In this document: in pieces, positions 16,071 to 38,569 of the stretch | Layout of the letters: each line of letters opens with the position of its first letter | How positions within the stretch are numbered: the stretch's first letter is position 1 | Assembly (NCBI GenBank): GCA_016873255.1 | Contig: VGXR01000017.1 | Coordinates: 1 to 42,151, forward strand | From: Planctomycetota bacterium | Lineage (GTDB): Bacteria; Planctomycetota; Phycisphaerae; Phycisphaerales; SM1A02 | Reading direction: 5' to 3' | DNA: 42,151 bases | Program-made: the position numbers and the translations under genes | Notes under the pieces: generated by a model | Told to the model about the DNA's origin: nothing | The model's input: the letters and a program-made list of their open reading frames with translations, nothing else | Database searches by the model: none

Positions 16071-17110
16071 GGAGCGATCCCGTCGGCAGGCAGACCGGGC
16101 ATGTCGCCGGTCGGTTCCGCGTCGCCATCCGCAGGTTCGTCGGCCTCCGGATCCGCCGCTCCCGAGGGCGCGCTGAGGGCCGCGGCCGCGGCCGCGGCGT
16201 TGTTGATGGCCGGCACCACCACCAACGCGAACACGCCGCCCGCCAGGAGAATCACGGTGATGGGGGGCACCAGCGTGGCGGTGACCACCTTCGCGACGTT
16301 GTTCGGGACCGCTGCGATGAGCGCGATGGTGACGGCCACGAGCACCCAGATGACGGACACCGTGCTCACGCAGTACGGGCCCAGGCACGGGATGGCGACG
16401 AAGGCCATCGGCCCGAGCGAGTACGCGTACGCGGGCCACACCACGCGCCACGGCGCCGGCGCACGCATCGCGCGCAGCGCAACCGTGGCAAGCGCCGCGG
16501 CCAGCGCCACCGCGAGCAGCACCCCCACGATGCCGCCGAGCGTGGAGAGGACGACCGTGCCCACCGTCTCCAGCACCGACGAGCGCCACGCCGAGCCCCC
16601 GGTGCGCGCGCCCGCGGTGCCGAAGCCGTCGAACGCCGCGAAGGCGATGATCACCGCCACGCCGGTGGGCACCGCCGCCACGCTCAGCATGACGATGCAG
16701 TAGCGGAACGCGGCCCACGCATCGGCACCCGCGGCCACCGCCCTGCCGACCGACACCGGGGCCACCAGTCCCTCGCGCGCCGTGGCCCAGAAGCGGCGGA
16801 ACACGCCGACGCCCGGGCGCTCCCAGGGGATCCGGGTCACCTCGGTCTGGTCGTCGGTGGCGCCCGGCGCAAGCCGCAGCACCAAGGTGTCGAGCGTGCA
16901 CGCGGCGCCGCAGCGGACGCACGCGAACTCGCGCGGCACGGGAAGCCCGTCCTTGTCGGTGCCGTAGTACTGCTGCATGCATCGAGGGCAGCAGAACTCC
17001 ACGGTGTTGGGCCGGAACTCGAACTCGCTCGGCGCGAAGCCACGGCCGCACTCCGGGCAGGTCCTGCCGGGGACGTTCCAGAGGGAGTAGCCGCAGCCCT
17101 TGCAGCGCAT
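16067..17110 (-). CDS. Zinc-ribbon membrane protein (Yip1-like organisation)
   Basis: 347 residues starting with MRCKGCGYSLW, a zinc ribbon (Cys3, Cys6, Cys18, Cys21), followed by a second ribbon (FCCPRCMQQYYG with FACVRCGAAC). A linker then leads to about five transmembrane helices (roughly 135-325) with the arrangement seen in Yip1-domain-like planctomycete proteins, and an acidic Pro/Ala tail. The ATG lies 37 nt downstream of the ilvE stop, with no TAnnnT close by, so it may be read from the ilvE transcript. Function unknown; together with the next gene it forms a coupled pair of zinc-ribbon membrane proteins. Confidence 0.75.
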   Translation of the reverse strand: MRCKGCGYSLWNVPGRTCPECGRGFAPSEFEFRPNTVEFCCPRCMQQYYGTDKDGLPVPREFACVRCGAACTLDTLVLRLAPGATDDQTEVTRIPWERPGVGVFRRFWATAREGLVAPVSVGRAVAAGADAWAAFRYCIVMLSVAAVPTGVAVIIAFAAFDGFGTAGARTGGSAWRSSVLETVGTVVLSTLGGIVGVLLAVALAAALATVALRAMRAPAPWRVVWPAYAYSLGPMAFVAIPCLGPYCVSTVSVIWVLVAVTIALIAAVPNNVAKVVTATLVPPITVILLAGGVFALVVVPAINNAAAAAAALSAPSGAADPEADEPADGDAEPTGDMPGLPADGIAP

Positions 17111-17147
17111 GCGCGTGTGCCTCGATCGGGGCGCCCCGCCCCGGGGT

Positions 17148-18068
17148 TCAGTCCTCGGGCGCGCCGGCGAGTATGCGCCGGCGGAACTCGGCCTCGAGCC
17201 GCTCGGTGAGCGGGCCCATGCGGCCGGAACCGATGGTGCGATCGCCGATGGCGCTCACCCCGATGATCTCGGCGGCGGTGCCGGTCAGGAACACCTCGTC
17301 GGCGCCGTACAGGTCGTCGAGCACCATGCGCCGCTCCTCCACCGGGATGCCGAGCGCGGGCGCGAGCGCGTCGATCACGAACTGCCGGGTGATGCCGTGC
17401 AGGATCCCCGCCGAGGTGGGCGGCGTGTGGATCCGGCCGGCCTTGATGGCGAAGATGTTGTCGCCGGTGCACTCGCTCACCTCGCCGTCCACGTTCAGCA
17501 TGATCGCCTCGAGCACCTTGGCGTCGATCGCCTCGATCTTGGCGAGGATGTTGTTGAGGTAGTTGAGGCTCTTGATGGCGGGGTCGAGGCACTGCATGGG
17601 GATGCGGGGCCGCTTGGCCACGATCACCTTCATGCCGGACCCGTACAGCTCGTGCGGGTACAGCTGGATGGTGTCCACCACGATGAACACGCACGGCCTG
17701 GGGCACGTGAACGGGTTCAGGCCGAGGGTGCCCGCGCCGCGCGTGGCCACCAGCCGGATGTAGCAGTCGTCCATCGCGCACGCCGCCATGGTGTCCTTCA
17801 TGGCGCGCGCGAGGTCGGCGCGCGAGTACGGAAGCCTCAGGCGGATGCGCTCGGCGCTCTCCTCCATGCGCCGAAGGTGGGAGTCCATCTTGAAGATGCG
17901 GCCCTTGTAGCCGCGCAGGCCCTCGAAGCAGCCGTCTCCGTAGAGCAGCCCGTGGTCGTAGACCGACACGCGCGCGTCGGCGGGATCGACGAGCGAGCCG
18001 TCCATCCAGATCTTCCGCGGGCGCGCGGGCGCGTGGGGAGCGTGGGCGGAGGCGGTCGCCGAGGTCAT
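17148..18068 (-). CDS. ilvE: Branched-chain amino acid aminotransferase
   Basis: 306 residues of PLP fold-type IV. Landmarks: KIWMDGSLVDPADARVSVYDHGLLYGDGCFEGLRGY, the PLP-binding Lys166 in AIKSLNYLNNI, the EXXXXN-like DGEVSECTGDNIFAI, and FLTGTAAEIIGV. It transfers the amino group between glutamate and branched-chain keto acids for Val, Leu and Ile synthesis. ATG 18068 follows TACACT (18075-18080) by exactly 6 nt, a leaderless arrangement. D-amino-acid or ADC-lyase relatives are possible alternatives, but length and motifs fit IlvE. Confidence 0.92.
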   Translation of the reverse strand: MTSATASAHAPHAPARPRKIWMDGSLVDPADARVSVYDHGLLYGDGCFEGLRGYKGRIFKMDSHLRRMEESAERIRLRLPYSRADLARAMKDTMAACAMDDCYIRLVATRGAGTLGLNPFTCPRPCVFIVVDTIQLYPHELYGSGMKVIVAKRPRIPMQCLDPAIKSLNYLNNILAKIEAIDAKVLEAIMLNVDGEVSECTGDNIFAIKAGRIHTPPTSAGILHGITRQFVIDALAPALGIPVEERRMVLDDLYGADEVFLTGTAAEIIGVSAIGDRTIGSGRMGPLTERLEAEFRRRILAGAPED

Positions 18069-23905: not shown

Positions 23906-24262
23906 TCACGCCGCCGGCTGCAGCGATCGCGCTGGGCCGAGGCACTCGATCCGCGCGGGCTTGCACCCGTGGCGCGAGCACTCCGTCCCGATGACCTCGG
24001 CGAGCGAGCGCACCTGCGCGGCCACGCACTCGTCGTCGCATGCGATCCGGAGCTCCGCGGCCGCGCCCTGCACGCCGCACTCGATGCGCATCGACGCACC
24101 GGAGCCCCACGCGTGCAGCAGCATGACGCCGCCGCGCTGGCCGATCAGCGAGCGCATCGCGCGAAGGAGCTGCGCGCGCAGCGCACCGACGGGCGCCGGC
24201 ACGGACGCGGGGACCTTGAAGCGTGGACCGATGGCTGGGAGCGCGGGGACGTCGATGTGCAT
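23906..24262 (-). CDS. Hypothetical protein at the end of the fliE-fliF operon
   Basis: 118 residues from ATG 24262. No recognised domain. The C-terminal half (SMRIECGVQGAAAELRIACDD ... VRSLAEVIGTECSRHGCKPARI) has the alternating strand-helix rhythm, with a closing long helix, of the FliK C-terminal hook-length-control fold; this is only a shape resemblance, and FliK would normally be much longer. Several Cys residues are present. It is the last gene of the operon, 65 nt after the preceding stop, and converges on the PIN/TRAM gene with 16 bp between stops. Codon and GC use match the neighbours, so it is likely real. Confidence 0.5.
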   Translation of the reverse strand: MHIDVPALPAIGPRFKVPASVPAPVGALRAQLLRAMRSLIGQRGGVMLLHAWGSGASMRIECGVQGAAAELRIACDDECVAAQVRSLAEVIGTECSRHGCKPARIECLGPARSLQPAA

Positions 24263-24327: not shown

Positions 24328-24558
24328 TCAATCCTTCGGCTTCTCGAGCCGCGACCGGGCAGCGTCGATCGCGGTCCGCGCGGCGTCGCGCACGGTTCGC
24401 GCGGCATCGGCCGCCGGCCCCTCGCCCTGCATGGCACGCTCGGCGGCGCGCCGGGTCACGGCCGCGAACCGGCCGATCGCCTCGAGCGCCGACGCGATCA
24501 CCTCCTCCTGCGAGGACGGCGGATGCACCGGGGGTTCGTCGCGCTTGGGTTCGGTCAC
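24328..24558 (-). CDS. Small hypothetical protein coupled to FliF-FliG
   Basis: 76 residues. GTG 24558 overlaps the stop of the FliF-FliG gene (GTGA), so it is translated by coupling. After a Pro-rich start (TEPKRDEPPVHPPSS) the rest is one or two amphipathic helices rich in Ala, Arg and Glu (EEVIASALEAIGRFAAVTRRA ...). No recognised domain. The longer open frame upstream is a shadow. Helical and adjacent to an M-ring protein, it could be a partner of the ring, but nothing specific supports that. Confidence 0.55.
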   Translation of the reverse strand: MTEPKRDEPPVHPPSSQEEVIASALEAIGRFAAVTRRAAERAMQGEGPAADAARTVRDAARTAIDAARSRLEKPKD

Positions 24559-26111
24559 GGCACCCTGCTGCCGGGACGATATCCGCCGCTGCGCGCGGGG
24601 CCGAGTTCCGCGAGGAACCCGTCGACCGCGTCGGACAGTTCCTCCCGGCTGGGCGAGTCGATCCCCCCGAGCGCGGACGTGACCTGCTGGACCTGCCCGA
24701 CCGGCAGCGCCTTCAGGACGGCCGCCGCCGCACATGCATCAAGCGCCACCACCAGCCGGGCCGCGCGCTCGGCGTCGCCGCCGTCCACCCACGCACCCAC
24801 CACCACTGCCGCATCGGCGGGCCGGGCCATCACTGCCTCGGACGCCTCCGCCCCGGGCAGGGGCTCGAGATCGAAGTCCGGCACGCCGGCATCTTCCGCG
24901 CCGACCCCCGCCAGCGCGGCGCGCGGCCGGTGCCAGGTCCACCAGGCGAACGCCGCCAGGCCGGCGGCCGCGACCATGGCCCACGCATACGGGAACCCGG
25001 GCGCGGGTGCCGAGCCGAGCGGCAGCGACCGCTCGCGTTCCGCGGCCGACTGCTCGCGCTGCCGCGCGGGCGTGCCCGCCGAGTACGGCGCCTCGGGCGC
25101 CACCACCGCCACGAACTCGCCCGCGGGCTCGGGCGCGAGCACCACGCTCACGGCCGCCGTGCAGGCGAGGTCGCCTCCCTCGAAGGGCGCGATCCGCGAC
25201 TCGACCCGCTCCCGCTCCATGCCGAGGTACGCGTCGAGGTCGCCGGACGTCTCGAGCTCCGCGCGCGAGACGGCCAGCGACCGCGGCAGTTCCACCGTGG
25301 CCACCACCGAGCCAGGGGATGCCTCGCGCACGCGCACCGAGGCGCCGGGCAGGTCGGCGAGCAGCGCGCGCAGCAGCACGGCAAAGCGGTCCTCGCGCTC
25401 GCGCGCGGTGTCGGCAAGCGCACGGGCGGACGCATCGCGCACGGCTCGCACGCGCCCCGCGCCCGCATCGATCACCGCCACCGATTCCGGGCGCATGCCG
25501 GGGCAGGCCCCGGCCACGAGCACCGCCACCGCGTCCACCAGGTCCTGCGTCATCGCACCGGCGCGCATCGACACCGTCACGCTCGCGGAGCCGCCGCCCG
25601 GCATGCCCGGCCCGGCCGTCCGCGTCGGCTCGCCCAGCACCACGCTCGCGCGCTCGACGCCGGGCTGCATGCCGATGGCTGCCTCGAGTTCGCGGATCGT
25701 CGCAGCGGTCCGGCGCGCGCGGGCGCTCTCGCCGCTCGCGAACACCGACTCGTCGGCAAGCGTGTCCGCCACCGCATTCGCGCGTGGGCGCGCAGTCGCG
25801 GCCTCGATGGCCCGCTGCGCGTCCACCTCGGACACCCACAGCGTCCCGCCGCGGAATTCATGGGAAATCCCTGCCGAGCGCAGCGCGGCGCGCGCGCCGT
25901 CGGCCGATGCCGCCGGAACCGCAAGCGCCACCGTCGGCCGCGAGCCGGCATCGCGCGCAAGCATCCACCAGCCGGCGGCGCCCGCCACCGCCAGAGCGGC
26001 AGCCGACACCGCCCACATGCGGCGCGGCGATGGCGATGCCCCGTCCGCATCGCCGGCCTCGGCAAGTTCGTGTCGGACGTCGGCGTCGTTCTGGTCCTCG
26101 AGCAGTTCCAT
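24555..26111 (-). CDS. fliF: FliF M-ring protein fused to a FliG N-terminal-like domain
   Basis: 518 residues. TM1 (33-51) is followed by ring-building motifs of the YscJ/FliF family: AALRSAGISHEFRGGTLWVS (76-94), IRELEAAIGMQPGVERASVVL (139-159) and ASVTVSMRAGAMTQDLVDAVAVLVAG (176-201). A FliF_C-like region (about 240-340) leads to TM2 (373-392). The cytoplasmic tail has the FliF C-terminal pattern PADAAVVVGAWV (431-442) that normally binds FliG, and it runs straight into a FliG-N-like domain (446-505: AARLVVALDACAAAAVLKALP, then SPSREELSDAVDGFLAEL). The torque-generating middle and C-terminal FliG domains are absent. It would form the MS-ring of a flagellar or type III export base. ATG 26111 has GGAGG 4 nt upstream. 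A type III secretion SctJ is the alternative, but SctJ is far shorter. Confidence 0.8.
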   Translation of the reverse strand: MELLEDQNDADVRHELAEAGDADGASPSPRRMWAVSAAALAVAGAAGWWMLARDAGSRPTVALAVPAASADGARAALRSAGISHEFRGGTLWVSEVDAQRAIEAATARPRANAVADTLADESVFASGESARARRTAATIRELEAAIGMQPGVERASVVLGEPTRTAGPGMPGGGSASVTVSMRAGAMTQDLVDAVAVLVAGACPGMRPESVAVIDAGAGRVRAVRDASARALADTAREREDRFAVLLRALLADLPGASVRVREASPGSVVATVELPRSLAVSRAELETSGDLDAYLGMERERVESRIAPFEGGDLACTAAVSVVLAPEPAGEFVAVVAPEAPYSAGTPARQREQSAAERERSLPLGSAPAPGFPYAWAMVAAAGLAAFAWWTWHRPRAALAGVGAEDAGVPDFDLEPLPGAEASEAVMARPADAAVVVGAWVDGGDAERAARLVVALDACAAAAVLKALPVGQVQQVTSALGGIDSPSREELSDAVDGFLAELGPARSGGYRPGSRVP

Positions 26112-26171: not shown

Positions 26172-26480
26172 TCAGCGGATGTCGCCCATGCGCGCGTAGG
26201 CCTCGAGCATGGCGGTGCGCGCGGCCTCGAGCATCCGGAACGCGGCATCCGCCTTGCGGGTGGCGAGCATCACGCCCTCCACATCGCTGGTGGCACGGGC
26301 GTCGGAAGCGGCGCGCGCGGCCTCTGAGCCGAGGCAGCGCGCACGCTCGAGCTGCGCGGACGCACCCGCAAGCAGTGCATCGCATCCGGCATCCGTGCGG
26401 GCGGGCGCCAGTGATGCGGCACTCGACGCAGCGAGGGGCTGGCTCCCGGAGACGGCGATGGGCCCGATGGGTGAGGTCAC
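26172..26480 (-). CDS. fliE: Flagellar hook-basal body protein FliE
   Basis: 102 residues, the normal FliE length. The C-terminal half (TSDVEGVMLATRKADAAFRMLEAARTAMLEAYARMGDI) matches the FliE signature of a helix that joins the MS-ring to the rod. The N-terminal half is low-complexity and helical. GTG 26480 is chosen because GGAG lies 7 nt upstream; an upstream ATG would put extra residues from the intergenic region in front. It precedes fliF-fliG in the same orientation, 60 nt away, as in ordinary flagellar operons. The 148-nt gap to the Fis-like gene contains a 7-bp hairpin (26511-26528) with no U-tract. Confidence 0.75.
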   Translation of the reverse strand: MTSPIGPIAVSGSQPLAASSAASLAPARTDAGCDALLAGASAQLERARCLGSEAARAASDARATSDVEGVMLATRKADAAFRMLEAARTAMLEAYARMGDIR

Positions 26481-26628
26481 GCGATCGCTCCGCGCCTTGG
26501 GGCGCACGCGCCCCGCATCCGTGCGGGGCAGCATGCACCACCTGCCGACTGGATCGGCAAGGGTTGCCCGATGGCTGCAGTTTCTGCGCGGCCGGATAAC
26601 CGCTCGGCTCGGTCGTCCCGAGCGCCGC

Positions 26629-27057
26629 CTACAGGTGGTGCGGCACCAGCCCGATGTCCTTCCACGCCCGGATCTTCATGCCGAGCGTCCGGACGCCGAT
26701 CCCGAGGGCCTTGGCGGTCCGGTCCCGGTGGCCGCCGAAGCGCTGCAACGTGGCGAGGATCGCCCGTCGCTCCAGGATCTCAAGCGTGACCGTGCCGTCG
26801 CAGGCGAGGAGCCCCGCGTCGTCCGCGCGCGCCCGCGCGACCTCGAGCTCGCGCGACAGCTCCTCGACCCGCTCGATGAGCGCCCGGTGCGTGCCCTGCA
26901 CGCCCGCGGCCACCTCGTTGAATGCGGAGAGGAGCTGCGCCAACGCCGGCGCGTCGTGGTGCGCGGTGGCTCGTTCGGCAAGTGGCACGGCGCGTTCGTG
27001 CAGTCCGTGGTCCAACGCAGTTCCTCGGTGGGCGGGTCCGTCCGCCCCTCGGGTCAT
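26629..27057 (-). CDS. Fis-type helix-turn-helix regulator
   Basis: 142 residues. A central helical, probably coiled-coil region (about 45-85, VEELSRELEVARARADD) precedes a C-terminal Fis-type HTH: TVTLEILERRAILATLQRFGGHRDRTAKALGIGVRTLGMKIRAWK. This is the DNA-binding module of sigma-54 activators such as FlbD/NtrC, but the AAA+ domain and receiver are absent. So it cannot itself drive sigma-54 open-complex formation; it may be an accessory DNA-binding protein. ATG 27057 overlaps the upstream stop (ATGA). Its position directly before fliE suggests a role in regulating the operon. Confidence 0.78.
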   Translation of the reverse strand: MTRGADGPAHRGTALDHGLHERAVPLAERATAHHDAPALAQLLSAFNEVAAGVQGTHRALIERVEELSRELEVARARADDAGLLACDGTVTLEILERRAILATLQRFGGHRDRTAKALGIGVRTLGMKIRAWKDIGLVPHHL

Positions 27058-28067
27058 CGGCGTTCGGCGGAACCCGACTTGAGGCGCATGTTCCGGCGCA
27101 TGGCCACGAACACAGTCGTGGCGAGCGCCAGCATCGCAAGCGACGGCAGGCAGACCCACCGAGTGGCATCGGCGGGCTGCGGCTCGAGCACGGAGGGCGC
27201 ACCCGGGGCGCCGGTCACCGGGTCGAAGCGGCGGAACGCCGCCCCGCCCTCACCCGTCGGCAACACCAGCACCAGCCCATCGCCGATGGCCACGAGCCCC
27301 GATGCACGCTCGGGCGGGTCGTAGCGCGCCACCTCGAGCGACGCGCCCCGAACGAGCGCGCGCACCGAGCGCGCACCGCCGTCCACGCGAATCTCCGCCG
27401 TGGGACGCACCGCGCCGGGGACGAAGCCGAGCCGCCCGGCACCGGCCGCGCCGACGTCGAGCGCGGTCCACTGGCCATCCGGCGAGCGCATCCGGATGGC
27501 CCCCGCCTCATCGACGAGCGCGGGGCCTCCGGCGAACGGGACAAGCACGCATCCGGCGTCATCGGGCGCGCCCGCAAGCGGCTGCCACCGCCCGGCCGAC
27601 AGGAGTTCGAGCCCTGCACCATCTCGGAGCGCAAGCAGCCCGTCGGCAACCGGCGCGATCCCGCGCAGCGCGCCGTCACCCGGGAGGCTCGGAAGCACCG
27701 ACGGCGGTGCCGGCGCGAACCACGCGCCCGTCGCGGGGTTCCGCGCCGACGTGACCCGCAGCACGTCCCGCCGGCCCACCGAGCCCGCGGGCATCACGAG
27801 CCACACGTCCGAGCCCGTCGCGGCCATGGCCTCGGGCGCAGCGGGGAGCACCAGCGCCTCGCGGACGCAGTCGCAGCCCATGGCGGACGCATGATGGAGC
27901 AGCACGTGCTCCATGCCGGCGGCGCGCGCTCGCTCCGCGACGAACCACGCATGCCCGGCATCGGCGGCCACGGGAAGCGAACGCCCTTCCGCGCGGGCAG
28001 GCCCGTGCAGCGCCGCGGCAAGCAGCACGCCGCAGGCGGCCGAGGCCCATCCGCGCCGCGCGCTCAA
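27054..28067 (-). CDS. Secreted protein with C-terminal membrane anchor, unknown function
   Basis: 337 residues from TTG 28067 (overlap TTGA with the preceding gene's stop). A signal peptide (RRGWASAACGVLLAAALHGPARAEG) is followed by a roughly 270-residue extracytoplasmic part with many short beta segments repeating every 40-45 residues, as in a beta-propeller, and a C-terminal transmembrane helix (LPSLAMLALATTVFVAM) with a short basic tail. No enzymatic motif seen. The long frame running further upstream is a shadow. Its place in the operon before the Fis and FliE genes suggests a surface or envelope role, but this is inference from position only. Confidence 0.65.
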   Translation of the reverse strand: MSARRGWASAACGVLLAAALHGPARAEGRSLPVAADAGHAWFVAERARAAGMEHVLLHHASAMGCDCVREALVLPAAPEAMAATGSDVWLVMPAGSVGRRDVLRVTSARNPATGAWFAPAPPSVLPSLPGDGALRGIAPVADGLLALRDGAGLELLSAGRWQPLAGAPDDAGCVLVPFAGGPALVDEAGAIRMRSPDGQWTALDVGAAGAGRLGFVPGAVRPTAEIRVDGGARSVRALVRGASLEVARYDPPERASGLVAIGDGLVLVLPTGEGGAAFRRFDPVTGAPGAPSVLEPQPADATRWVCLPSLAMLALATTVFVAMRRNMRLKSGSAERR

Positions 28068-29008
28068 GGCAGCTCCTTCACGTCCTGGGGCGCAAACCGC
28101 TCGCGGAGCGCATCGAGGTCGTAGAGCAACGGCCGGTCGGCCGCGTCCGCATCGGCACGGGCAGACTCCAGCGAGAGAAGCAGCGCGATCGATGGCGCCT
28201 GCTTCACCCCCGGGGCCTCGATGCGCACCCGGCGCGGCATCCGCGGCCACGCCCCCTGCGCCGTGCCGAGGGTCTCCACCGGCAGCATCCCGTCGAAGCT
28301 CGAGAGCACCGTTGCGCCGCCCGGGACGCTCATCCGCACCCGGAGGGGAGCGAGCGACTTCGGGTCGAAGGCCGCCTCCACGCGCGCGCGTCCCTCGGGC
28401 TCGCACTCGATCCACAGGAGCTCGCCGCGCACCTCGGGCGCCGCGCCCGCGCGCGGCACGAGCGGACGGAGTCCCAGCAGCACGGGACTCGGCGTTCCGC
28501 CGGCGAGCGATCGAAGGGACTCGTCCGCACCACCGCCGCCTTCCTCGGCAGCGGGACCTCCGGCAGCGACCGCCGCCGGCGCGAGGCTCCCCCACCGGAG
28601 GGTGGAAGGCTCCGCCTTCAGGAAGAACTGCCACCAGCGCCGGCCATCGGACCCGACCCAGGCGTACCGATCGCCGAGCTTGGAGATGCTGACGGCGAAG
28701 CCGCGGCCGGCGCACCATCGCAGGTCGGCATCGCCCTGCTCGAACCGATCGCCGGACTCGTCGCGCCAGCGGAGCTCCGTGACGCCGCGCGCCACCAGCA
28801 CGCGAAGCTCTCCCGCCCGGGCACGCTCCGAGGACGCGATCGCCTCGAGAGTGGCCGCCTCGAGAGCGGCAACCCCGGGAGCGGCAACCTCGGCAGCGCG
28901 CGCCTCCGCCGCGGGGCCTGACTGCGCCACGTCGACCGCCGGACGCGGCGCGCACGCCGCGGCGGCCAGCGCACCACCCAGCGCAAGCGCACGGACACCG
29001 CGGCTCAC
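28064..29008 (-). CDS. Conserved planctomycete-type lipoprotein
   Basis: 314 residues. GTG 29008 overlaps the upstream stop (GTGA). The signal ends in a lipobox (ALAAAAC), so it is a lipid-anchored extracytoplasmic protein. The middle (WRDESGDRFEQGDADLRWCAGRGFAVSISKLGDRYAWVGSDGRRWWQFF) has a beta-rich pattern seen in planctomycete lipoproteins that resemble the LolA/LolB fold in layout. A second half contains VRGELLWIECEPEGRARVEA and further strands. A role in lipoprotein or lipid handling is a guess. It is second in the operon 29538 to 23906. Confidence 0.65.
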   Translation of the reverse strand: MSRGVRALALGGALAAAACAPRPAVDVAQSGPAAEARAAEVAAPGVAALEAATLEAIASSERARAGELRVLVARGVTELRWRDESGDRFEQGDADLRWCAGRGFAVSISKLGDRYAWVGSDGRRWWQFFLKAEPSTLRWGSLAPAAVAAGGPAAEEGGGGADESLRSLAGGTPSPVLLGLRPLVPRAGAAPEVRGELLWIECEPEGRARVEAAFDPKSLAPLRVRMSVPGGATVLSSFDGMLPVETLGTAQGAWPRMPRRVRIEAPGVKQAPSIALLLSLESARADADAADRPLLYDLDALRERFAPQDVKELP

Positions 29009-29538
29009 AGTTCGCTCTGCATCACCTCGCCGAGGTGGTCGGCGAGTTCCTGCAGGTCCTCGTCCTTGATCCGCGGGTTCGGCACGCGGATGGGCGGGGT
29101 GCCCTCCTCGGTGCCGCGCTTCTGCACCAGCCACCACTCCTCGTCGCCCTCGCGCTCGATGCGCACCTGGCGCAGCAGGCGCTTGCGGAGGAGGATCAGG
29201 CAGACCAGCCACCGGTACGCGCGCCGCTGCGGGCGGTCATCGCCGTCGAGGCGGTCGAAGAGCTCCACGAGCGTGTCATCGTCCACGAGCAGACGACGGC
29301 GCTCGTCGGGAGCGGGTGCCGTGGTGCGCCAGAAGCACACCATCGCGTCGGGGCGCGCACCGGCCTCCCAGGCATCGGCCGCGAAGTCCCTGCGCACGAA
29401 CTCGGGGCCCTCGGCACGGGCCTCGGCCGCGTCGCACAGCGTCGCCACGATGCGCTCGCCCGGCACGAGGGCACGCCCCGTGGACGCGCATGTTGCGGTG
29501 AATCGGCCGAGCTGGAACGAGCCTTGGGTGCGCGACAT
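29005..29538 (-). CDS. Conserved hypothetical protein, first gene of the fliE-fliF operon
   Basis: 177 residues. It contains a possible metal-binding start (CASTGRALVPGERIVATL), a segment with FVRRDFAADAWEAGARPDAMVCFWRTTAP, and then LLVDDDTLVELFDRL and YRWLVCLILLRKRLLRQV. I recognise this layout as a planctomycete-conserved protein without known function. ATG 29538 follows TACGAT (29546-29551) by 7 nt, so it should be leaderless and is the natural head of the operon. It is divergent from the diadenylate cyclase gene, 55 bp away. Confidence 0.7.
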   Translation of the reverse strand: MSRTQGSFQLGRFTATCASTGRALVPGERIVATLCDAAEARAEGPEFVRRDFAADAWEAGARPDAMVCFWRTTAPAPDERRRLLVDDDTLVELFDRLDGDDRPQRRAYRWLVCLILLRKRLLRQVRIEREGDEEWWLVQKRGTEEGTPPIRVPNPRIKDEDLQELADHLGEVMQSEL

Positions 29539-30412: not shown

Positions 30413-31443
30413 GCGTGCGCCACGACTGGAAGTCCACCGCGCTCAACATGCTGGCCGCGGCCATCATCGCGCTCCTGATCTGGGCATATGCCAACGACCG
30501 CACGCGTGAGTCCGCGTCGGTGTCCGGCACGGTGCGCCTCACGGCCGCCGACCCGCGCGCGGCGTTCGTCGACCCGGCCACGGCCGTGCAGCTGGCGGTC
30601 GAGGTCCGCGGATCGCGACGCGCCATCGAGCAGCTCGAGGACGCCCTGCGGAGCGGCCTGTCGCTGGCCGTCGGCGGCGAGGGACTGCCGGCGGATGCCG
30701 GCGCGCACGAGGTGCCGCTGCGCGACGTGCTGGCGGCCAACCCCACCGTCGCGGCCACCGGCGCGGAGGTTGTGCGCGTGCGCCCCGAATCGCTCCGCTA
30801 CGAGAACGGCACGCTGGTCACCGAGCAGGTGCCGGTGACCATCGGGCTGCCGAACGCCTCGCTGCGCGGCACGCCGGCCGCGGACCCCGCGGTGGTGACC
30901 GTCACGATGCCCGCCTCCGCGCGCGAGGCCGGCGGTGCGCTCGCCGTCGAGGCAGCAGTCGACACGCGGGCGCTCGCGCCGGGCCGCCACCGGCTCGACG
31001 TGGACCTGCGCCTGCCAGAGCGCCTGTCGCGCTGGCGCGAGCAGTGCCGCATCGTGCCGCCGCGCACCGTGGTGACGTTCGAGCTGGCATCGGCGACGGC
31101 GGAGCTCACGCTCGACCGCGTCGCGGTGCGCCTGGCGCTCAGCCCGCGCGCGGCGGACCGCTGGGAAGTGACGCCGGAACCCGGCGCCGACGCGCTGGAC
31201 GGGGTGGTGGTCTCCGGCCCCGCGGCGTCGATCGCGGAGCTGGCGTCGGGGCGCTTCGTGCCGGTCGCCGTCATCGACCTCGGCGAGGAACCCGCGCGCG
31301 TCGGCGTCGAGGGCTACGCGGTCTCCTACTGGCGCCTGCCCGACGGCGTGACGGTGGTCCGCACCCGCGGCAGCGAGCCAGGAATCGCCCCCTCGGTGAG
31401 GCTCCGCGTGCTGCCGCGCAACCCCGCGGTCCAGCCGAACTGA
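30409..31443 (+). CDS. cdaR: YbbR/CdaR domain protein
   Basis: 344 residues. One N-terminal transmembrane helix (about 9-27, STALNMLAAAIIALLIWAY) anchors an extracytoplasmic region with several YbbR repeats (about 35-130, 130-240 and 240-335), each with the beta-rich pattern seen around VPVTIGLPNASLRG. CdaR binds and modulates the membrane diadenylate cyclase. It starts inside the last codon of cdaA (ATGA) and so is co-translated. Convergent with tyrS, 28 bp apart. glmM, which often follows, is not here. Confidence 0.85.
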   Translation: MSVRHDWKSTALNMLAAAIIALLIWAYANDRTRESASVSGTVRLTAADPRAAFVDPATAVQLAVEVRGSRRAIEQLEDALRSGLSLAVGGEGLPADAGAHEVPLRDVLAANPTVAATGAEVVRVRPESLRYENGTLVTEQVPVTIGLPNASLRGTPAADPAVVTVTMPASAREAGGALAVEAAVDTRALAPGRHRLDVDLRLPERLSRWREQCRIVPPRTVVTFELASATAELTLDRVAVRLALSPRAADRWEVTPEPGADALDGVVVSGPAASIAELASGRFVPVAVIDLGEEPARVGVEGYAVSYWRLPDGVTVVRTRGSEPGIAPSVRLRVLPRNPAVQPN

Positions 31444-31471
31444 GTCCTCGCTGCGCGCGGCGCGGCGCGGT

Positions 31472-32764
31472 TCACGCCTTCGCGCGCACCGCGTGCCAGT
31501 TCTTCTTCCCGCGCCGCAGCAGCGCCACGCGCCCGTGCAGCAGGTCGTGCGGCGTGAGCCGTGCGTCCGCCGCGGCCTTCGCCCCGTTCACGAGCACCGC
31601 GCCGGCGGCCAGGAAGTCGCGCGCCTCGCGCTTGCTCGCCGCAAGCGTGGTGCGCGGCAGCAGGTCAAGGAGCGCAAGCCCGTCGCCGCCAAGCTCGCCG
31701 GGCTCCAGCTCGGTCACGGGCAGGTCCTCGGCCACCTCGTCCACGGTGCGCGCATCCAAGGCCCCCAGGTCGCCCGAGAAGAGCGCGCGGCCCGCCGCCT
31801 CGGCGTTGGCGCGCTCCGTCGGGCCGTGGAAGAGCTCGGTCATCTCGTCGGCAAGCACGCGCTGCGCCTCGCGCTCCTGCGGCCGCTCGGCCGCGGACCG
31901 CTCCAGCTCGGCCACGCGCTCCCGGGGCAGGAACGTGAACCACTTGATGAACCGCACCACGTCGGCGTCGGCGGTGTTGAGCCAGAACTGGTGGAAGCGG
32001 AACGCGCTGGTGCGGTCGGCCGTCAGCCACACCGCGCCCTTCTCGCTCTTGCCGAACTTGCCGCCGTCGGACTTGGTGACCAGGGGATTCGTGATGCCGT
32101 GCGCCTCGCCCTGCTCCATGCGCCGCACCAGGTCGATGCCGCTCACGATGTTGCCCCACTGGTCCGCGCCGCCGAGCTGGACCGTGCAGCCCATCGAGCG
32201 GAAGAGGTGCAGGAAGTCGTACGCCTGCAGGATCATGTAGCTGAACTCGGTGTAGCTGATGCCCTGCTCGCGGCCCTCGAGGCGCGAGCGCACCGAGTCG
32301 CGCATGATCATCTGGTTCACGCTGAAGTGCTTGCCCACCTCGCGCAGCACCTCGATGTAGCCCAGGCCCCGCAGCCAGTCCGCGTTGTTGACCACGGTCG
32401 CGGCGCGGTCGCCCTTCGCCGCGAAGTCGATCACGCGCGCGAAGATCTCGCGCTGCCGCGAGACGTTGTGCCGCACGACCTCCTCGGTCATGAGCTGGCG
32501 CTCGGCGCTCTTGCCGCTCGGGTCGCCGATCAGCCCGGTGCCGCCGCCCATCAGGACGATCGGCCGGTGGCCCGCGCGCTGCCAGTGCGCGAGCAGCTTC
32601 ATCGGCACGTAATTGCCGACCGTGAGGCTGTCGGCGGTCGGGTCGAAGCCCGCGTAGGCCACGCGCCCGGGCGTGGCCAGGTATGCGGGCAGCGCATCCG
32701 ACGTGGTCTGGTGCAGCAGCCCGCGCCAGGCGAGCTCGTCGAGGAAGCCGTGCGGGGAAGCCAT
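31472..32764 (-). CDS. tyrS: Tyrosyl-tRNA synthetase
   Basis: 430 residues, class I aminoacyl-tRNA synthetase. The Rossmann start is YAGFDPTADSLTVGNYVPM, where the usual H-x-G-H reads T-V-G-N. The tyrosine pocket (SYTEFSYMILQAYDFLHL; LGGADQWGNIVSGIDLVRR) and the KMSKS loop (KFGKSEKG) are intact. A C-terminal S4 RNA-binding domain (about 365-425, SKREARDFLAAGAVLVNGAKA) follows. ATG 32764 is preceded by TAGCCT (32774-32779) with a 9-nt gap. Confidence 0.94.
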   Translation of the reverse strand: MASPHGFLDELAWRGLLHQTTSDALPAYLATPGRVAYAGFDPTADSLTVGNYVPMKLLAHWQRAGHRPIVLMGGGTGLIGDPSGKSAERQLMTEEVVRHNVSRQREIFARVIDFAAKGDRAATVVNNADWLRGLGYIEVLREVGKHFSVNQMIMRDSVRSRLEGREQGISYTEFSYMILQAYDFLHLFRSMGCTVQLGGADQWGNIVSGIDLVRRMEQGEAHGITNPLVTKSDGGKFGKSEKGAVWLTADRTSAFRFHQFWLNTADADVVRFIKWFTFLPRERVAELERSAAERPQEREAQRVLADEMTELFHGPTERANAEAAGRALFSGDLGALDARTVDEVAEDLPVTELEPGELGGDGLALLDLLPRTTLAASKREARDFLAAGAVLVNGAKAAADARLTPHDLLHGRVALLRRGKKNWHAVRAKA

Positions 32765-32796
32765 CGCGGCGGAAGGCTACACGCGGAGGAGGCGCC

Positions 32797-34464
32797 TCAG
32801 GTGCAGGGGCCCCACTCGCCGAGAAGCAGGCCGAGGTCCGACCCGCTCACCGACCCGTTGCCGTCGAGGTCGCACCGCCCCGAGCCGCTGCCCCAGTCGC
32901 CGAGCAGGATGCCGATGTCGGCCCCGTCGACGTCGAGGTCGTCGTCGAGGTCCCCGGGGCAGTCGACGGCGGCGATGATCGCGCGGTCCAGCTGCACCAT
33001 CCCCCACCCGAACTCGGCGTCGAAGCCCGCCGGCCCGAGGTCGCGCGCCGAGTCGCGGAGGACGCTCTCGATCGCCGCGGCACCGAGCTGCGGCGCGACG
33101 GAGATCACGAGCGCGGCGACGCCCGCCGCGTATGGCGACGCGAACGAGGTGCCTTGGACCCACGTGTAGTCGGTCGAGGAATACCCCCCCGAGCCCGAGA
33201 CGTCCGCCGCGTACACAGAGGACCCCGGGGCGGTCACGAACACCTCGGGGCCGAAGCACGAGAAGGACGCCCGCTGTCCTCCCGGCGACAGCGCTCCGAC
33301 GCCGTTCACCGTCGGGAGCGACGCGGGGTAGGAGATCGCCGTGTTGCCGCTGTTCCCCGCGGAGGCGAAGTGCACCATCCCGGCCGCGCGGGTCGCGGCA
33401 TAGGAGGCCTCGATGGCGCTCGAGCTCGCGCCGTAGTAGTTGCTGTTGTTGGTGACCCGGATGCCGTTCTGCGCGGCCCAGTCGATGGCGTTCGCGGTCC
33501 AGGAGTACGTCGCGTTCCAGCTGCCAGAGCAGGACGGGGAGGTCACGAAGCACCGTGCCGAGACGGATGTGCAGCCGGGCGCCGATCCCACCGTGCCGAT
33601 CCCGTTGCCGCCGGGGCTCGAGACGCAGCTGGCCACGGGGGTGCCGTGGCGATCGCACGAGTTACCCGGCCCGCCGCCCGCGATGCCCGCGGTCGCGCCG
33701 GTCGTGAAGTCGCGCCCGGGGAGCTGCCGGATGTCCGGGTGCGCCTGGTCCACGCCGACGTCGATCACGAGCACCTTGACGTCGGGCGAGCCCTGCGTCA
33801 GCGCCCAGCCGTAGGTCGAGCGCATGTCGAAGCCGGGCTGCCAGCCCGCGGACTGCCCGGCGTTGAGGTGACCCCAGCAATTGGCGAACCCCGGGTCGTT
33901 CGGCACCCAGGTCCCCGACCCGCGCCCGGTGAACGACATGTCCGGCTCCGCGAACTCCACCGCCGGGTGGGCCGCCAGCGCGGCAACGCGCGCGAGCACC
34001 GCGTCGCCGTCCCGGGCGTCGAGCGAAGCGAGGAACAGGCCTGGCACCGCGCGGAATTCGCGCATCGAGACGGCATCCGCCAGCGAGGCGAGCGCATGCT
34101 CGCGCGCGGCGCGGTCGGCATCATCCCGCACACGCACGAGCACCGCCGGCCCGGGCCAGCAAAGGCCACCCGCGCGGTCGACGTACGCGTGCGCCACGAA
34201 CGACGAACGACCGATGGCGTCGTGGACCCGCGGATCGCGCGCGGCCGCGGAGCCGGCGCGGACCGCGATCCAGCCCTCCCGATCCGTCGGCACGAGTCCC
34301 GGGAGCGTGTCCGGCACCAGGCCTGCCTCGTCACGGAGGACCACGGCGCCCGCCGGGGGCAGCGGCCCGTCACGGTCGGCGAACGGCGGCGGAGTTCGGT
34401 CGGCGAACGGAACCGGCGGGACGGCGATCGATGCTCCGAGCAGCAGGAAGGTCGCGGTCGTCAT
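32797..34464 (-). CDS. Secreted subtilisin-like S8 serine protease with Phycisphaerae C-terminal repeat
   Basis: 555 residues. After a signal peptide (TATFLLLGASIAVPPVPFA) and a propeptide-like region to about residue 180, the S8 domain shows Asp235 (VLVIDVGVD), His273 (DRHGTPVAS), the oxyanion Asn371 (FASAGNSGN) and Ser440 (QGTSFASPYAAG). The last 55 residues hold two Asp-rich loops (CPGDLDDDLDVDGAD, CDLDGNGSVSGSD), each followed by LGDWG/LGEWG. This looks like a dockerin-type calcium-binding sorting or attachment module common in Phycisphaerae exported proteins. The enzyme is exported and probably degrades protein outside the cell. ATG 34464 has a TATGCT -10 (34486-34491) about 21 nt upstream. 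Confidence 0.92.
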   Translation of the reverse strand: MTTATFLLLGASIAVPPVPFADRTPPPFADRDGPLPPAGAVVLRDEAGLVPDTLPGLVPTDREGWIAVRAGSAAARDPRVHDAIGRSSFVAHAYVDRAGGLCWPGPAVLVRVRDDADRAAREHALASLADAVSMREFRAVPGLFLASLDARDGDAVLARVAALAAHPAVEFAEPDMSFTGRGSGTWVPNDPGFANCWGHLNAGQSAGWQPGFDMRSTYGWALTQGSPDVKVLVIDVGVDQAHPDIRQLPGRDFTTGATAGIAGGGPGNSCDRHGTPVASCVSSPGGNGIGTVGSAPGCTSVSARCFVTSPSCSGSWNATYSWTANAIDWAAQNGIRVTNNSNYYGASSSAIEASYAATRAAGMVHFASAGNSGNTAISYPASLPTVNGVGALSPGGQRASFSCFGPEVFVTAPGSSVYAADVSGSGGYSSTDYTWVQGTSFASPYAAGVAALVISVAPQLGAAAIESVLRDSARDLGPAGFDAEFGWGMVQLDRAIIAAVDCPGDLDDDLDVDGADIGILLGDWGSGSGRCDLDGNGSVSGSDLGLLLGEWGPCT

Positions 34465-34540
34465 GGGTCACCCAGAGGACTTGCGAGCATAGCCTGCGAA
34501 ACCCGCGTCACCAAGCAATTCGGACCCACGGATGGGGCGC

Positions 34541-35629
34541 TCAACCGGCCGACAGCGCGCCGGACTTCGCGCGGATGTCCTTCAGCAGGTCGTGCCAGCT
34601 CTGGACGAACGCCTTCGCACCCTGCTCCTGCAGCGCGGCGGCGGTGCCGGGCAGGTCGATCCCCGCGGCCCGCGCCTCGGCAAGCGCGGCGCGCAGCGGA
34701 CCGCCGTCGGGGGGGAGGACCGCGGTCACGCGGCCCGAGGCATGGAACGCCTGGAGCGTCGCCTCGGGCACGGTGTTCACGGTGAGCGGCGACGCCAGGC
34801 CCTCCACATAGAGCGACGCCGGGAGCTTGGGGTCCTTGGTGCCGGTGCTCGCGTAGAGGAGCCGCTGCGGACGCGCACCCTTGGCCTGGAGCGCGAGCCA
34901 CCGCGGCGAGGAGTGGAGCTCCACGTACGCCGCGTACGCGTCGGCGCCGATCGCGAGGCCCACGCGGTTCTTCAGTTCGGCGGGCAGCTTCGCGTCGAGG
35001 GTCGCATCCCAGCGCGAGATGAAGAGGCTGGCGACGCCCAAGGTGTCCGGTGCCTTGCCCGCGGCCACGCGGCGCTCAAGCCCGCGCAGGTACGCCTCGG
35101 CCGCGGCCAGGTAGTGGGCGGTGTCGAACAGGAGCGTGACGTTCACCGGGATGCCGCGGAAGGTGAGCTCCTCGATCGCGGGGATGCCCTCCTTCGTGCC
35201 GGGGACCTTGATGTAGAGGTTGGGGCGCCCCGCGCGCGCGTGCAGCTCGACCGCCTGCTGCACGGTGCTCGCCGCGTCGTAGGCAAGGAGCGGGCTCACC
35301 TCGAGCGAGCACCAGCCGTCGACGCCGCCGGTGCGCGCGTGGACGCCGGCGAACAGGTCGCAGGCGCGCGTCAGGTCGGCAAGCGCCAGCCCGAAGAACG
35401 CCTCCTCCCCGCCCAGGCCCTTCGCGGAGAGCTCCGTGATCTGCGCGTCGTAGTCCTTGCTCCCGGCGATCGCCTTCGCGAAGATCGTCGGGTTGGAGGT
35501 CAGGCCCACGACGCTCCACTCGGCGATGTACTTCTGGAGCGCGCCGCCGAGCATGGCCCGCGTGATGTTGTCGATCCAGATGGACTGGCCCGCCATGGAG
35601 AGGACGGCGGTGGGAACGGCGTTCGGCAT
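34541..35629 (-). CDS. tal: Transaldolase
   Basis: 362 residues of the long bacterial transaldolase type. The Schiff-base lysine lies in PNLYIKVPGTKEGIPAIEEL, with WSVVGLTSNPTIFAKAIAGS near the N-terminus and SLFISRWDATLD, LYASTGTKDPKL later. It exchanges the dihydroxyacetone unit between sugar phosphates in the pentose phosphate pathway. ATG 35629 is preceded by TAGGAT (35636-35641) with a 6-nt gap. It is divergent from pgi, 20 bp away, and shares its promoter spot, so sugar phosphate isomerase and transaldolase are probably co-regulated. Confidence 0.94.
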   Translation of the reverse strand: MPNAVPTAVLSMAGQSIWIDNITRAMLGGALQKYIAEWSVVGLTSNPTIFAKAIAGSKDYDAQITELSAKGLGGEEAFFGLALADLTRACDLFAGVHARTGGVDGWCSLEVSPLLAYDAASTVQQAVELHARAGRPNLYIKVPGTKEGIPAIEELTFRGIPVNVTLLFDTAHYLAAAEAYLRGLERRVAAGKAPDTLGVASLFISRWDATLDAKLPAELKNRVGLAIGADAYAAYVELHSSPRWLALQAKGARPQRLLYASTGTKDPKLPASLYVEGLASPLTVNTVPEATLQAFHASGRVTAVLPPDGGPLRAALAEARAAGIDLPGTAAALQEQGAKAFVQSWHDLLKDIRAKSGALSAG

Positions 35630-35634
35630 CGCCC

Positions 35635-35641
35635 TATCCTA
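35635..35641. promoter_or_regulatory. Overlapping bidirectional -10 of tal and pgi
   Basis: The seven bases TATCCTA provide TATCCT on the plus strand (35635-35640, 9 nt before the pgi ATG) and TAGGAT on the minus strand (35641-35636, 6 nt before the tal ATG). One symmetric -10 element therefore serves both directions, and only 20 bp separate the two start codons. No recognisable -35 occurs on either side within the coding regions. Confidence 0.65.
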
Positions 35642-35649
35642 CGCGCCCC

Positions 35650-37287
35650 ATGAACGCCTCCGCGCCGCTCGACACGCTGCCCGCACACCGCCTGCTGCAG
35701 TCGCACGCCGAGCGCCTGCGGCCCGTGCACCTTCGCGAGCTCTTCGCGAGCGACCCCGGGCGCACCGCCGCGATGGCCGCGGAGGCGCACGACGTGCACC
35801 TCGACTACAGCAAGCAGCGGATCGATGCCGCGGCCATGAAGGACCTGCTCGCCCTCCTCGGCCAGTCGGGCTTCGCCGCTCGGCGCGCCGCGATGTTCGC
35901 GGGCGAGCGCATCAACTCCACCGAGGACCGCGCCGTCCTCCACGTGGCCCTGCGCGCGCCGCGCGGCACCGTCATGCGCACCGGCGGGCGGGACGTGGTC
36001 CCCGACGTCCATGCCGTGCTCGACCGCATGGCCGCCTTCGCGGGCCTGGTGCGTTCGGGCCGCTGGAAGGGCCACACCGGAAGGCCCATCCGCACGGTCG
36101 TGAACATCGGGATCGGCGGCAGCGACCTCGGCCCCGCCATGGCCAACGACGCGCTCCGCGACTTCGCCGCGCCGGGGCTCGAGTTCCGCTTCGTGTCCAA
36201 CGTGGACCCGGGCGACTTCGCGTGGAAGACGGCGGGGCTCGACCCGGCCGAGACGCTGTTCATCGTCGCCAGCAAGACCTTCACCACGCAGGAGACCATG
36301 GCCAACGCGCGCACCGCGCGTGCGTGGAGCCTGCAGGCCTTCGGCGGCGACGAGCGCAGCGTGGCGCGGCACTTCGCGGCCGTCTCCACCGCGGCCGACC
36401 TCGTCGCGCAGTTCGGCATCGACCCGGGCAACATGTTCGGCTTCTGGGACTGGGTCGGCGGCCGCTACTCGATGGACAGCGCGATCGGCCTGTCCACCAT
36501 GATCGCCATCGGGCCCGACGCCTTCGGCGACATGCTCGCGGGCTTCCGCGAGGTGGACGCGCACTTCCTGGAGGCACCCGCCGAGCGCAACATCCCGGTG
36601 CTGATGGGCCTGCTGCAGGTGTGGAACACCGACTACCTCGGCTTCGGGGCGCATGCGGTGCTGCCCTACTGCCAGCACCTGCACCGCTTCACCGCGTACC
36701 TGCAGCAGCTCGAGATGGAGTCAAACGGCAAGCGCACGCAGCTCGACGGCCGCCCGGTCGCATGGACCACGTGCCCGGTGGTCTGGGGCGAACCCGGCAC
36801 CAACGGCCAGCACGCCTTCTTCCAGCTGCTGCACCAGGGCAACGTCACGGTGCCGGCCGACTTCATCGCCTTCGCCGAGCCGAACGCCGACTCGCTGGGC
36901 ATGCACGACATGCTCTTCGCCAACGCCGTGGCGCAGGCGCGGGTCATGGGCTTCGGGCAGACCGCGGAGGAACTGCGCGCGCTGGGCACGCCCGAGCACC
37001 TCGTCGAGCACAAGGTGATGCCGGGCAACCGGCCGACCACCTTCCTCCTCTGCCGCAAGCGCACGCCGCGCGCGCTCGGCCGGCTGGTGGCCCTCTACGA
37101 GCACGCCACCTTCACCGCCGGTGCGCTGTGGAACATCAACAGCTTCGACCAGTGGGGCGTGGAGCTCGGCAAGAAGGTGTGCAGCAGCCTGCTGCCGATG
37201 CTCGACGGGCCCCGCCGGCAGGCACCGGACGCAAGCACCGATGCGCTCATCGCGCGCTACCGCGCGTGGCGCGGGCGCGGCGCCTGA
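35650..37287 (+). CDS. pgi: Glucose-6-phosphate isomerase
   Basis: 545 residues, full length. Typical segments: VNIGIGGSDLGPAMANDALRDF, VSNVDPGDFAWKTAGLDPAETLF, ASKTFTTQETMANARTARAW, GGRYSMDSAIGLSTMIAIG, and GALWNINSFDQWGVELGKKV. It interconverts glucose-6-phosphate and fructose-6-phosphate in glycolysis. ATG 35650 follows TATCCT by 9 nt. Its own stop is followed by a convergent hairpin. Confidence 0.97.
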   Translation: MNASAPLDTLPAHRLLQSHAERLRPVHLRELFASDPGRTAAMAAEAHDVHLDYSKQRIDAAAMKDLLALLGQSGFAARRAAMFAGERINSTEDRAVLHVALRAPRGTVMRTGGRDVVPDVHAVLDRMAAFAGLVRSGRWKGHTGRPIRTVVNIGIGGSDLGPAMANDALRDFAAPGLEFRFVSNVDPGDFAWKTAGLDPAETLFIVASKTFTTQETMANARTARAWSLQAFGGDERSVARHFAAVSTAADLVAQFGIDPGNMFGFWDWVGGRYSMDSAIGLSTMIAIGPDAFGDMLAGFREVDAHFLEAPAERNIPVLMGLLQVWNTDYLGFGAHAVLPYCQHLHRFTAYLQQLEMESNGKRTQLDGRPVAWTTCPVVWGEPGTNGQHAFFQLLHQGNVTVPADFIAFAEPNADSLGMHDMLFANAVAQARVMGFGQTAEELRALGTPEHLVEHKVMPGNRPTTFLLCRKRTPRALGRLVALYEHATFTAGALWNINSFDQWGVELGKKVCSSLLPMLDGPRRQAPDASTDALIARYRAWRGRGA

Positions 37288-37341
37288 GGCCGGGGCCCGC
37301 GCCGCGAGTCACGCACCGATCGGCTTCGGGGGCGCGTCGGG

Positions 37342-37363
37342 GGGCGCGCCGGGGGGCGCGCCC
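37342..37363. repeat. GC-rich hairpin in a G-rich tandem repeat between convergent genes
   Basis: Between pgi and the convergent DUF6600 gene, GGGCGCGCC (37342-37350), a 4-nt G loop and GGCGCGCCC (37355-37363) form a perfect 9-bp stem. It lies in three near-identical units of about 12 bp with the pattern GGGGGCGCGYCG (from about 37329). No T-run follows on either strand. It could act as a roadblock or bidirectional terminator for both convergent genes, but this is weak. Otherwise the 93-bp gap holds nothing recognisable. Confidence 0.4.
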
Positions 37364-37380
37364 GCGGCACGCGCAAGGAC

Positions 37381-38550: not shown

Positions 38551-38569
38551 GCCGCGGATCGTAGCCCCG

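Follow-up and report, generated by a model that had tools for sequence, protein, structure and literature searches.

A planctomycete FliF ring protein fused to the N-terminal domain of FliG in a genus that retains a flagellar-type export gate

Background

What could a flagellar ring protein be for when it carries a single domain of its rotor partner and nothing more? This question is raised by an open reading frame in the window, by which we mean the whole stretch of DNA analysed (42,151 nucleotides), the entire contig C17 of a 2.78-Mb planctomycete genome that is 97.5% complete. The original prediction held that the ring protein FliF runs here, without a stop, from its FliG-binding tail into the FliG N-terminal domain (FliG_N) and that the middle and C-terminal FliG domains are missing. 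It offered two explanations, namely, a separate partial FliG elsewhere in the genome, or a machine for export or anchoring that has ceased to rotate. A natural FliF-FliG fusion has been reported from the Chlamydiaceae (Bergeron 2016, PMC4768692), and FliG_N together with the FliF tail is described as forming a domain of similar architecture to the middle domain of FliG, FliG_M (PMC7355467).

Results

The fusion gene (fliF::fliG_N, P0002) occupies 24555..26111 on the reverse strand, as do all window features given below, and reads from an ATG at 26111 to a stop at 24555 with no internal stop codon. As predicted, one 518-aa open reading frame joins the two families, and both exceed their Pfam cut-offs: YscJ_FliF with 52.3 bits (cut-off 24.4) and FliG_N with 27.4 bits (E 5.4e-6, cut-off 25). 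The protein is laid out as FliF ring domains, a membrane helix, the FliG-binding tail, FliG_N, and then the stop. The ring-building region matched by YscJ_FliF, residues 71-216 (25464..25901), was also matched to FliF, EscJ, and PrgK by Foldseek. The second transmembrane helix, residues 375-394 (24930..24989), is a helix in the structural model and was assigned to the membrane from its position and sequence. A hydropathy rule tried for this helix was set aside in favor of the model, as it picked the first FliG_N helices in 8 of 11 members and another place in G007; the pick shows these first helices to be markedly hydrophobic. The FliG-binding tail comprises helices 421-429 and 431-443 (24783..24851), placed by the model and profile comparison. 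The FliG_N part, residues 447-503 (24603..24773), agrees with the predicted limits of 446-505 and with helices 447-506 of the model, and its Pfam match covers 57 profile positions (5-61 of 104).

No FliG middle or C domain was found by Pfam in the fusion protein, as had been claimed, and FliG_C had no match in this genome at E ≤ 10; with FliG_N present and these absent, the protein is not a FliG. It also falls far below two NCBIfam cut-offs (best match, the model TIGR02544 of the injectisome ring protein SctJ, 23.6 bits vs. 161.95; the fliF equivalog TIGR00206, 17.1 bits vs. 129.75), and we therefore regard it as a divergent member of the superfamily and not a standard FliF. A profile comparison of 11 fusion tails with FliG_N of 14 relatives gave a probability of 96% (E 4.4e-9), using 14 of 20 FliG loci after rows in which the script found no full FliG were dropped. 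The sequence just upstream of FliG_N matched the FliF C-tails of 15 relatives at E 2.3e-4 with a probability of only 44%. In the whole genome, the fusion protein was the sole FliG_N match over the cut-off, with one other match at E ≤ 10 (12.7 bits). The suggestion of a separate partial FliG was thus not upheld, as FliG_C was missing from this genome and, at E ≤ 0.01, from all 14 genomes sampled in the genus, and this genome held no further FliG_N over the cut-off; a separate, complete fliG with its own N domain was likewise not found in the genome. A candidate second FliF on C19 (E 6.4e-4, 18.9 bits) was rejected, as the open reading frame looked by eye like a sensor kinase and the match was taken as chance.

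The fusion protein was sought in 61 genomes. The genus is represented by 14 genomes (this one and 13 others), and 11 of these carry it uninterrupted in a single frame, the ten other fusions being 48-56% identical to the window protein, and all 11 matched both YscJ_FliF and FliG_N at E ≤ 1. The three genomes in which it was not found (G009, G011, and G012) are 67, 64, and 88% complete, respectively. One genome, G007, has a second partial copy (G007:C103:4-831, 47% identity to that of the window); this genome is listed with 7% contamination, and the copy perhaps represents a second strain. A scan of public genomes, with patterns that reach near relatives, found no group beyond the genus with the fusion. 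Across the class, FliG_N was matched in 310 of 397 genomes among the matches listed, a count in which weak FliG_N fusions elsewhere are invisible and from which we draw nothing.

This recurrence bears on two simpler explanations. Ten of the genomes with the fusion are MAGs, which speaks for an assembly or annotation artifact in which a frameshift or chimeric contig merges two separate genes, but the same fusion lies on separate contigs of 11 genomes, no stop codon falls within the frame, and the remainder of fliG is absent both downstream in the loci read and elsewhere. Recurrence in 11 genomes refutes the artifact, and we give it virtually no credence. It is also very improbable that a second start inside the frame yields FliG_N as a protein of its own, which then binds FliF as usual. 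Start-like codons do occur near the joint, including a GTG at residue 455 in 10 of the 11 rows, but this GTG sits inside the first FliG_N helix, and the stretch from residue 410 to residue 446 holds no ATG, GTG, or TTG shared by all 11 rows.

The full-length AlphaFold model had low overall confidence (pLDDT 71, pTM 0.39), while residues 421-506 were predicted as six helices, mostly at ~ 90, with pLDDT of 84-92 per ten-residue block over 421-500. The 97-residue tail modelled alone gave the same six helices (mean pLDDT 86, pTM 0.73). Both the profile check and the structure prediction of the C-terminus came out in favor of the original prediction. When the tail was compared with known structures by VIA-align, the ten best rows had Z of 10.4-12.2 over 82-87 residues, all spanning the whole model, at 6-12% identity; for helical bundles, a Z near 12 may mean merely a common arrangement. 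Nine of these rows fell on the C domain of FliG and the tenth, 3hjl, on the middle domain. By comparison, the FliG_N chains taken from FliF:FliG complexes (5tdy_D and 5wuj_B) covered only model residues 23-91 or 23-87, with Z 7.5. Such whole-length alignment to the C and middle domains would be expected if two FliF helices complete a domain otherwise made by two proteins. Foldseek with the 97-aa tail alone returned no match at E ≤ 0.001, and its top rows were mostly FliG or FliF:FliG entries. The identification of the FliG_N part is thus carried by the sequence matches and not by the fold Z. In the model, the FliF:FliG 'split domain', which co-folds from the FliF tail and FliG_N as two chains in PDB entries 5tdy and 5wuj, appears here unsplit, as a predicted six-helix domain of a single chain.

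The ring part of the protein differs from that of flagellated relatives as well. The insert bounded by two anchor positions in the third ring domain is 9 residues long in all 11 genus members (residues 263-271 of the window protein, 25299..25325), compared with 91-97 residues in all 17 flagellated relatives examined (flagellin present), 30 in G016, and 80 in G017. Relative to the flagellated relatives, the FliF of the genus is shortened by about 84 residues at a position that we take, from known FliF architecture, to be the beta-collar, and we infer from the alignment and from how helices and strands follow one another in the model that the collar is what is missing. The model helices and strands, as read, run on without a collar. 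In the flagellum, the rod is encircled by the collar.

Just upstream of the fusion lies a degenerate fliE of 120 aa (26172..26534), which scored below the cut-offs of Pfam FliE (20.4 bits vs. 22.4, E 5.8e-4) and TIGR00205 (19.7 bits vs. 30); the FliE proteins of G016, G017, and G028 scored 67-75 bits. Its state could reflect decay. Next comes a Fis-type HTH_8 protein (26629..27159, 43.8 bits), 176 aa as an open reading frame and 104 aa by codon use, which we read as the remnant of an NtrC-type regulator carried there by relatives, since complete response regulators, in which HTH_8 is accompanied by receiver and sigma-54 domains, stand at the matching place in G016, G017, G028, and G035. The operon of G028 and G035 runs from an NtrC-type regulator through a small unmatched gene, a rod-protein gene, fliE, fliF, fliG, fliH, and fliI and on, where the small gene (no match at E ≤ 0.001) is flgB by position and the fliE of G035 was identified by eye. 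In the window, 94 bases separate fliE from the HTH frame, leaving no room for the two genes that precede fliE in G028 and G035. Two further open reading frames upstream of the regulator remnant (27054-29212) had no Pfam match at E ≤ 0.01 in the shorter forms scanned, and similar frames occupy the same place in several genus members.

Directly downstream of the fusion is a 76-aa open reading frame (24328..24558) whose longer 135-aa form had no Pfam match; small frames occupy the same place in several relatives. A 118-aa frame (23906..24262) is tentatively considered a minimal FliK-like protein, a weak assignment that draws on the one of five aligned homologues that matches Flg_hook (E 0.0019), the window copy itself having no Flg_hook match. 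Elsewhere in the window, 32797-34464 encodes a subtilase (Peptidase_S8, 121 bits) whose C-terminal repeat looks dockerin-like by eye, for which no dockerin match was found in Pfam at E ≤ 0.01; freshwater Nemodlikiaceae have been reported with cohesin and dockerin modules (PMC6461901).

The genus lacks matches to the families of a working flagellum. No match to FliG_C, FliMN_C, Flagellin_N, or MotB_plug at E ≤ 0.01, and no FliI over the cut-off (379.5 bits), was found in any of the 14 genomes. Among all 61 genomes, these families were found in 41, 41, 40, 40, and 39 (FliI over the cut-off), respectively, with one FliMN_C genome and one MotB_plug genome counted below the cut-off. The genus genomes are incomplete (64-97%), and chance absence of five families from all 14 is nevertheless unlikely. 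FliI-type matches in the genus reached 164-232 bits, and five of the 14 genomes had none at E ≤ 1e-40. The two in this genome (230.7 and 168.6 bits) were rejected as FliI because they fall below the cut-off, at a level seen in nearly all relatives, and such matches are taken to be F1-type subunits. A search of this genome for rod proteins gave none over the cut-off and one match at 11.9 bits to a short model. The C-ring, stator, and filament that a functional flagellum has are each absent from all 14 genomes.

The export gate, meanwhile, is present. On C18, positions 30791-39265 hold, in one direction, FliO, FliP, FliQ, FliR, FlhB, FlhA, an FlhF-like GTPase, a MinD/FlhG-like ATPase, and a FliA/WhiG sigma factor (sigma-28) that exceeds the FliA_WhiG cut-off. 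FliP scored 226.1 bits against a flagellar cut-off of 217.45; FliO, FliQ, FliR, FlhA, and FlhB fell below their equivalog cut-offs, yet were matched best by flagellar models, the preference for FlhB being slight (43.9 vs. 42.6 bits). On these scores, the FliP/FliQ/FliR/FlhA gate classes as flagellar. FlhA was found in 13 of the 14 genus genomes (not in G004) and in 56 of the 61 overall, with partial matches only in G001, G005, G007, and G009. Its cytoplasmic domain is gap-free in the four genus members compared and agrees with that of a flagellated relative at 161-173 of 344 residues. The FlhB on C18 (L035:12890-13633) stops just before the self-cleaving domain, and all seven genus members examined lack the C-terminal domain with its NPTH motif, at lengths of 217-260 residues that include one row cut by a contig end and one with a later start. 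In G016, G017, and G031, the length of FlhB is kept and NPTH is absent; two flagellated relatives were inspected, and the motif reads NPTH in G035 and NPEH in G028. C18 also retains FliW and CsrA genes (16701-17517, L034), though the genome gave no match to flagellin, the usual binding partner of FliW.

We estimated dN/dS by the Nei-Gojobori method on pairs that share genomes. Values were 0.043-0.153 for the tail plus FliG_N part (seven pairs), 0.051-0.174 for the whole fusion protein (seven pairs), and 0.031-0.043 for FlhA (four pairs); the FliG_N part alone, which is short (57 codons), gave 0 to 0.128. The second membrane helix and linker were the least constrained, at up to 0.585. Selection on the fused domain and on FlhA is purifying. 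Together with the absence of FliG_C, FliM/N, MotB, and flagellin from all 14 genomes and the presence of the gate, this supports, as far as gene content can, the predicted non-rotating machine for export or anchoring.

These values also weigh on the possibility that the genes are the remains of a flagellum on its way out and the fusion a by-product of deletions. Signs of decay are not lacking: FliE is below its cut-off, the regulator is reduced to its HTH, FlhB is truncated, and FlhA went unmatched at E ≤ 1e-5 in three members of the family (G014, G018, and G030). Against this, the frames are open in all 11 fusions, dN/dS is far below 1 for the fused domain and for FlhA, and FlhA is kept in 13 of 14 small genomes. 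Since low dN/dS means that the fusion and FlhA genes are not old pseudogenes, decay of this kind would have to be recent, and we consider a mere relict quite unlikely.

Other members of the family show related arrangements. The G016 locus has the regulator, fliE, fliF, and a short fliG, followed by genes on the opposite strand; the 284-aa product of this fliG has the N and C domains and a portion of M. In G017, the regulator and fliE are followed by a single open reading frame with YscJ_FliF and FliG_C (L098:10106-11986), in which FliG_C scored 72.6 bits and no FliG_N or middle domain was found at E ≤ 0.1. G016, G017, and G031 all have FlhA, with no FliMN_C, flagellin, MotB, or FliI over the cut-off. 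In G031, FlhA lies on C118 (L120), where FliPQR and FlhB without NPTH were assigned by gene order; the fusion query found no FliF relative in that genome at E ≤ 0.001.

In an FlhA tree of 32 proteins, which includes seven of the 13 FlhA proteins of the genus, the genus forms one clade (100/100) adjoining the flagellated G028 (85/90). G017 adjoins the flagellated G020 (99/96), G016 adjoins the flagellated G023 (83/86), and G016, G017, and G031 were grouped together in 4% of bootstrap trees. This is a tree of a single gene and not a species tree; G031 and G035 have long branches, several supports are moderate, and firm support among these placements is limited to the G017-G020 pair. The scattered placements indicate that the motor was probably lost on more than one occasion, so that its loss seems repeated within the family, and that the joining of fliF to one or another part of fliG was probably likewise no single event.

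Discussion

The reading we favor, with reasonable though far from full confidence, is that the genus still uses a static flagellar ring and export gate without an ATPase. The fusion gene would encode the ring protein of what was formerly a flagellum and is one no longer. The FliF tail and FliG_N halves would fold into one six-helix domain, such that each ring subunit bears its own finished cytoplasmic cap, and the role that best accounts for FliG_N is that of supplying the half of the structure that the FliF tail requires for folding. The collar would have been lost because no rod is held there, leaving the ring as a fixed housing around a gate that may be driven by the proton motive force, with neither ATPase nor substrate switch, and that would export what is probably a small set of proteins. 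The most likely history is that motility was lost, that deletions in the fliF-fliG operon then joined the adjacent genes, and that selection kept the part of FliG that completes the FliF tail.

Export of this kind has some precedent. A Salmonella bypass mutant is reported to carry out flagellar export on the proton motive force without FliI, and the FlhB C domain is described as governing the substrate switch (PMC7911332) and as docking early substrates (PMC8983047). Loss of the FlhB C-terminal domain argues against normal export; given ATPase-free export and the switch role of that domain, the gate could still pass a few unswitched substrates with the aid of FlhA, or could instead be a platform.

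As a platform, the complex would be structural and pass nothing through, serving as the seed of a nanotube in the manner of the CORE complex (FlhA, FlhB, FliP, FliQ, and FliR), which has been proposed as a nanotube platform (PMC7176660), or marking the cell pole together with FlhF and FlhG. The retained set equals the CORE set plus FliO and FliF, genes for an FlhF-like GTPase and an FlhG/MinD-like ATPase lie downstream of flhA in this genome, and the absent ATPase and FlhB C-domain fit a platform better than an exporter. Against it, the part played by the CORE in membrane tubes is not general, as tubes of Helicobacter pylori are described as CORE-independent and nanotubes as rising in stressed or dying cells (PMC8455137), and the cytoplasmic domain of FlhA, which handles substrates, is still gap-free and conserved. 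We consider a pure platform unlikely. The resemblance to CORE lies in the same membrane proteins being retained, while here FliF is kept and FlhB is without its C-terminal domain.

The favored static ring and gate can be set beside other known systems. Like the present protein, the Chlamydiaceae fusion has FliG material at the cytoplasmic end of FliF, in hosts that are not thought to be flagellated and have few flagellar genes, FlhA among them. As described in that report, however, it is a protein of ~ 330 aa whose SctJ-like region covers only RBM2, an injectisome is also present, and the fused part is homologous to the middle region of FliG; going by this description, the two differ in that ours carries FliG_N behind the binding tail and has a longer ring part without the collar insert. 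The FliF-FliG fusions described in Salmonella are also in-frame, but they are engineered (PMC7355467, PMC4768692), and the present system lacks both the motor and the M and C domains of FliG. The Myxo-type non-flagellar T3SS, described as having neither needle protein nor outer-membrane channel, is likewise flagellum-derived type III machinery that has lost flagellum-specific genes (PMC3459982); in the present genome, flagellar models outscore injectisome models for both FliP and FlhA, and there is no FliI over the cut-off. Among the literature matches listed, the Chlamydiaceae fusion was the only natural one, the others being engineered, and none combined FliG_N fused behind the binding tail, a FliF without the collar insert, and an FlhB lacking the self-cleaving domain.

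Conclusions

The FliF tail and FliG_N occurring as one chain in a motorless ring suggests that the domain they form has a role apart from torque. Partial flagellar gene sets do not show motility, which calls for caution, as a study of freshwater planctomycetes inferred swimming from the flagellar apparatus in the lake family Nemodlikiaceae of the class Phycisphaerae (PMC6461901). More broadly, we tentatively propose, at somewhat less than even confidence, that a minimal static type III machine, made of a ring and a proton-driven gate with no ATPase, rotor, rod, or substrate switch, arose several times in one planctomycete family by stripping of the flagellum, with fliF-fliG fusions (to FliG_N in the genus, to FliG_C in G017) as steps. 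The gate is under selection after the rotor, stator, filament, and ATPase have gone, seemingly more than once in the family, and this would offer intermediates for the exaptation of flagella. If this is true, the fliF-fliG fusions would form a present-day series of intermediates from flagella to other devices.
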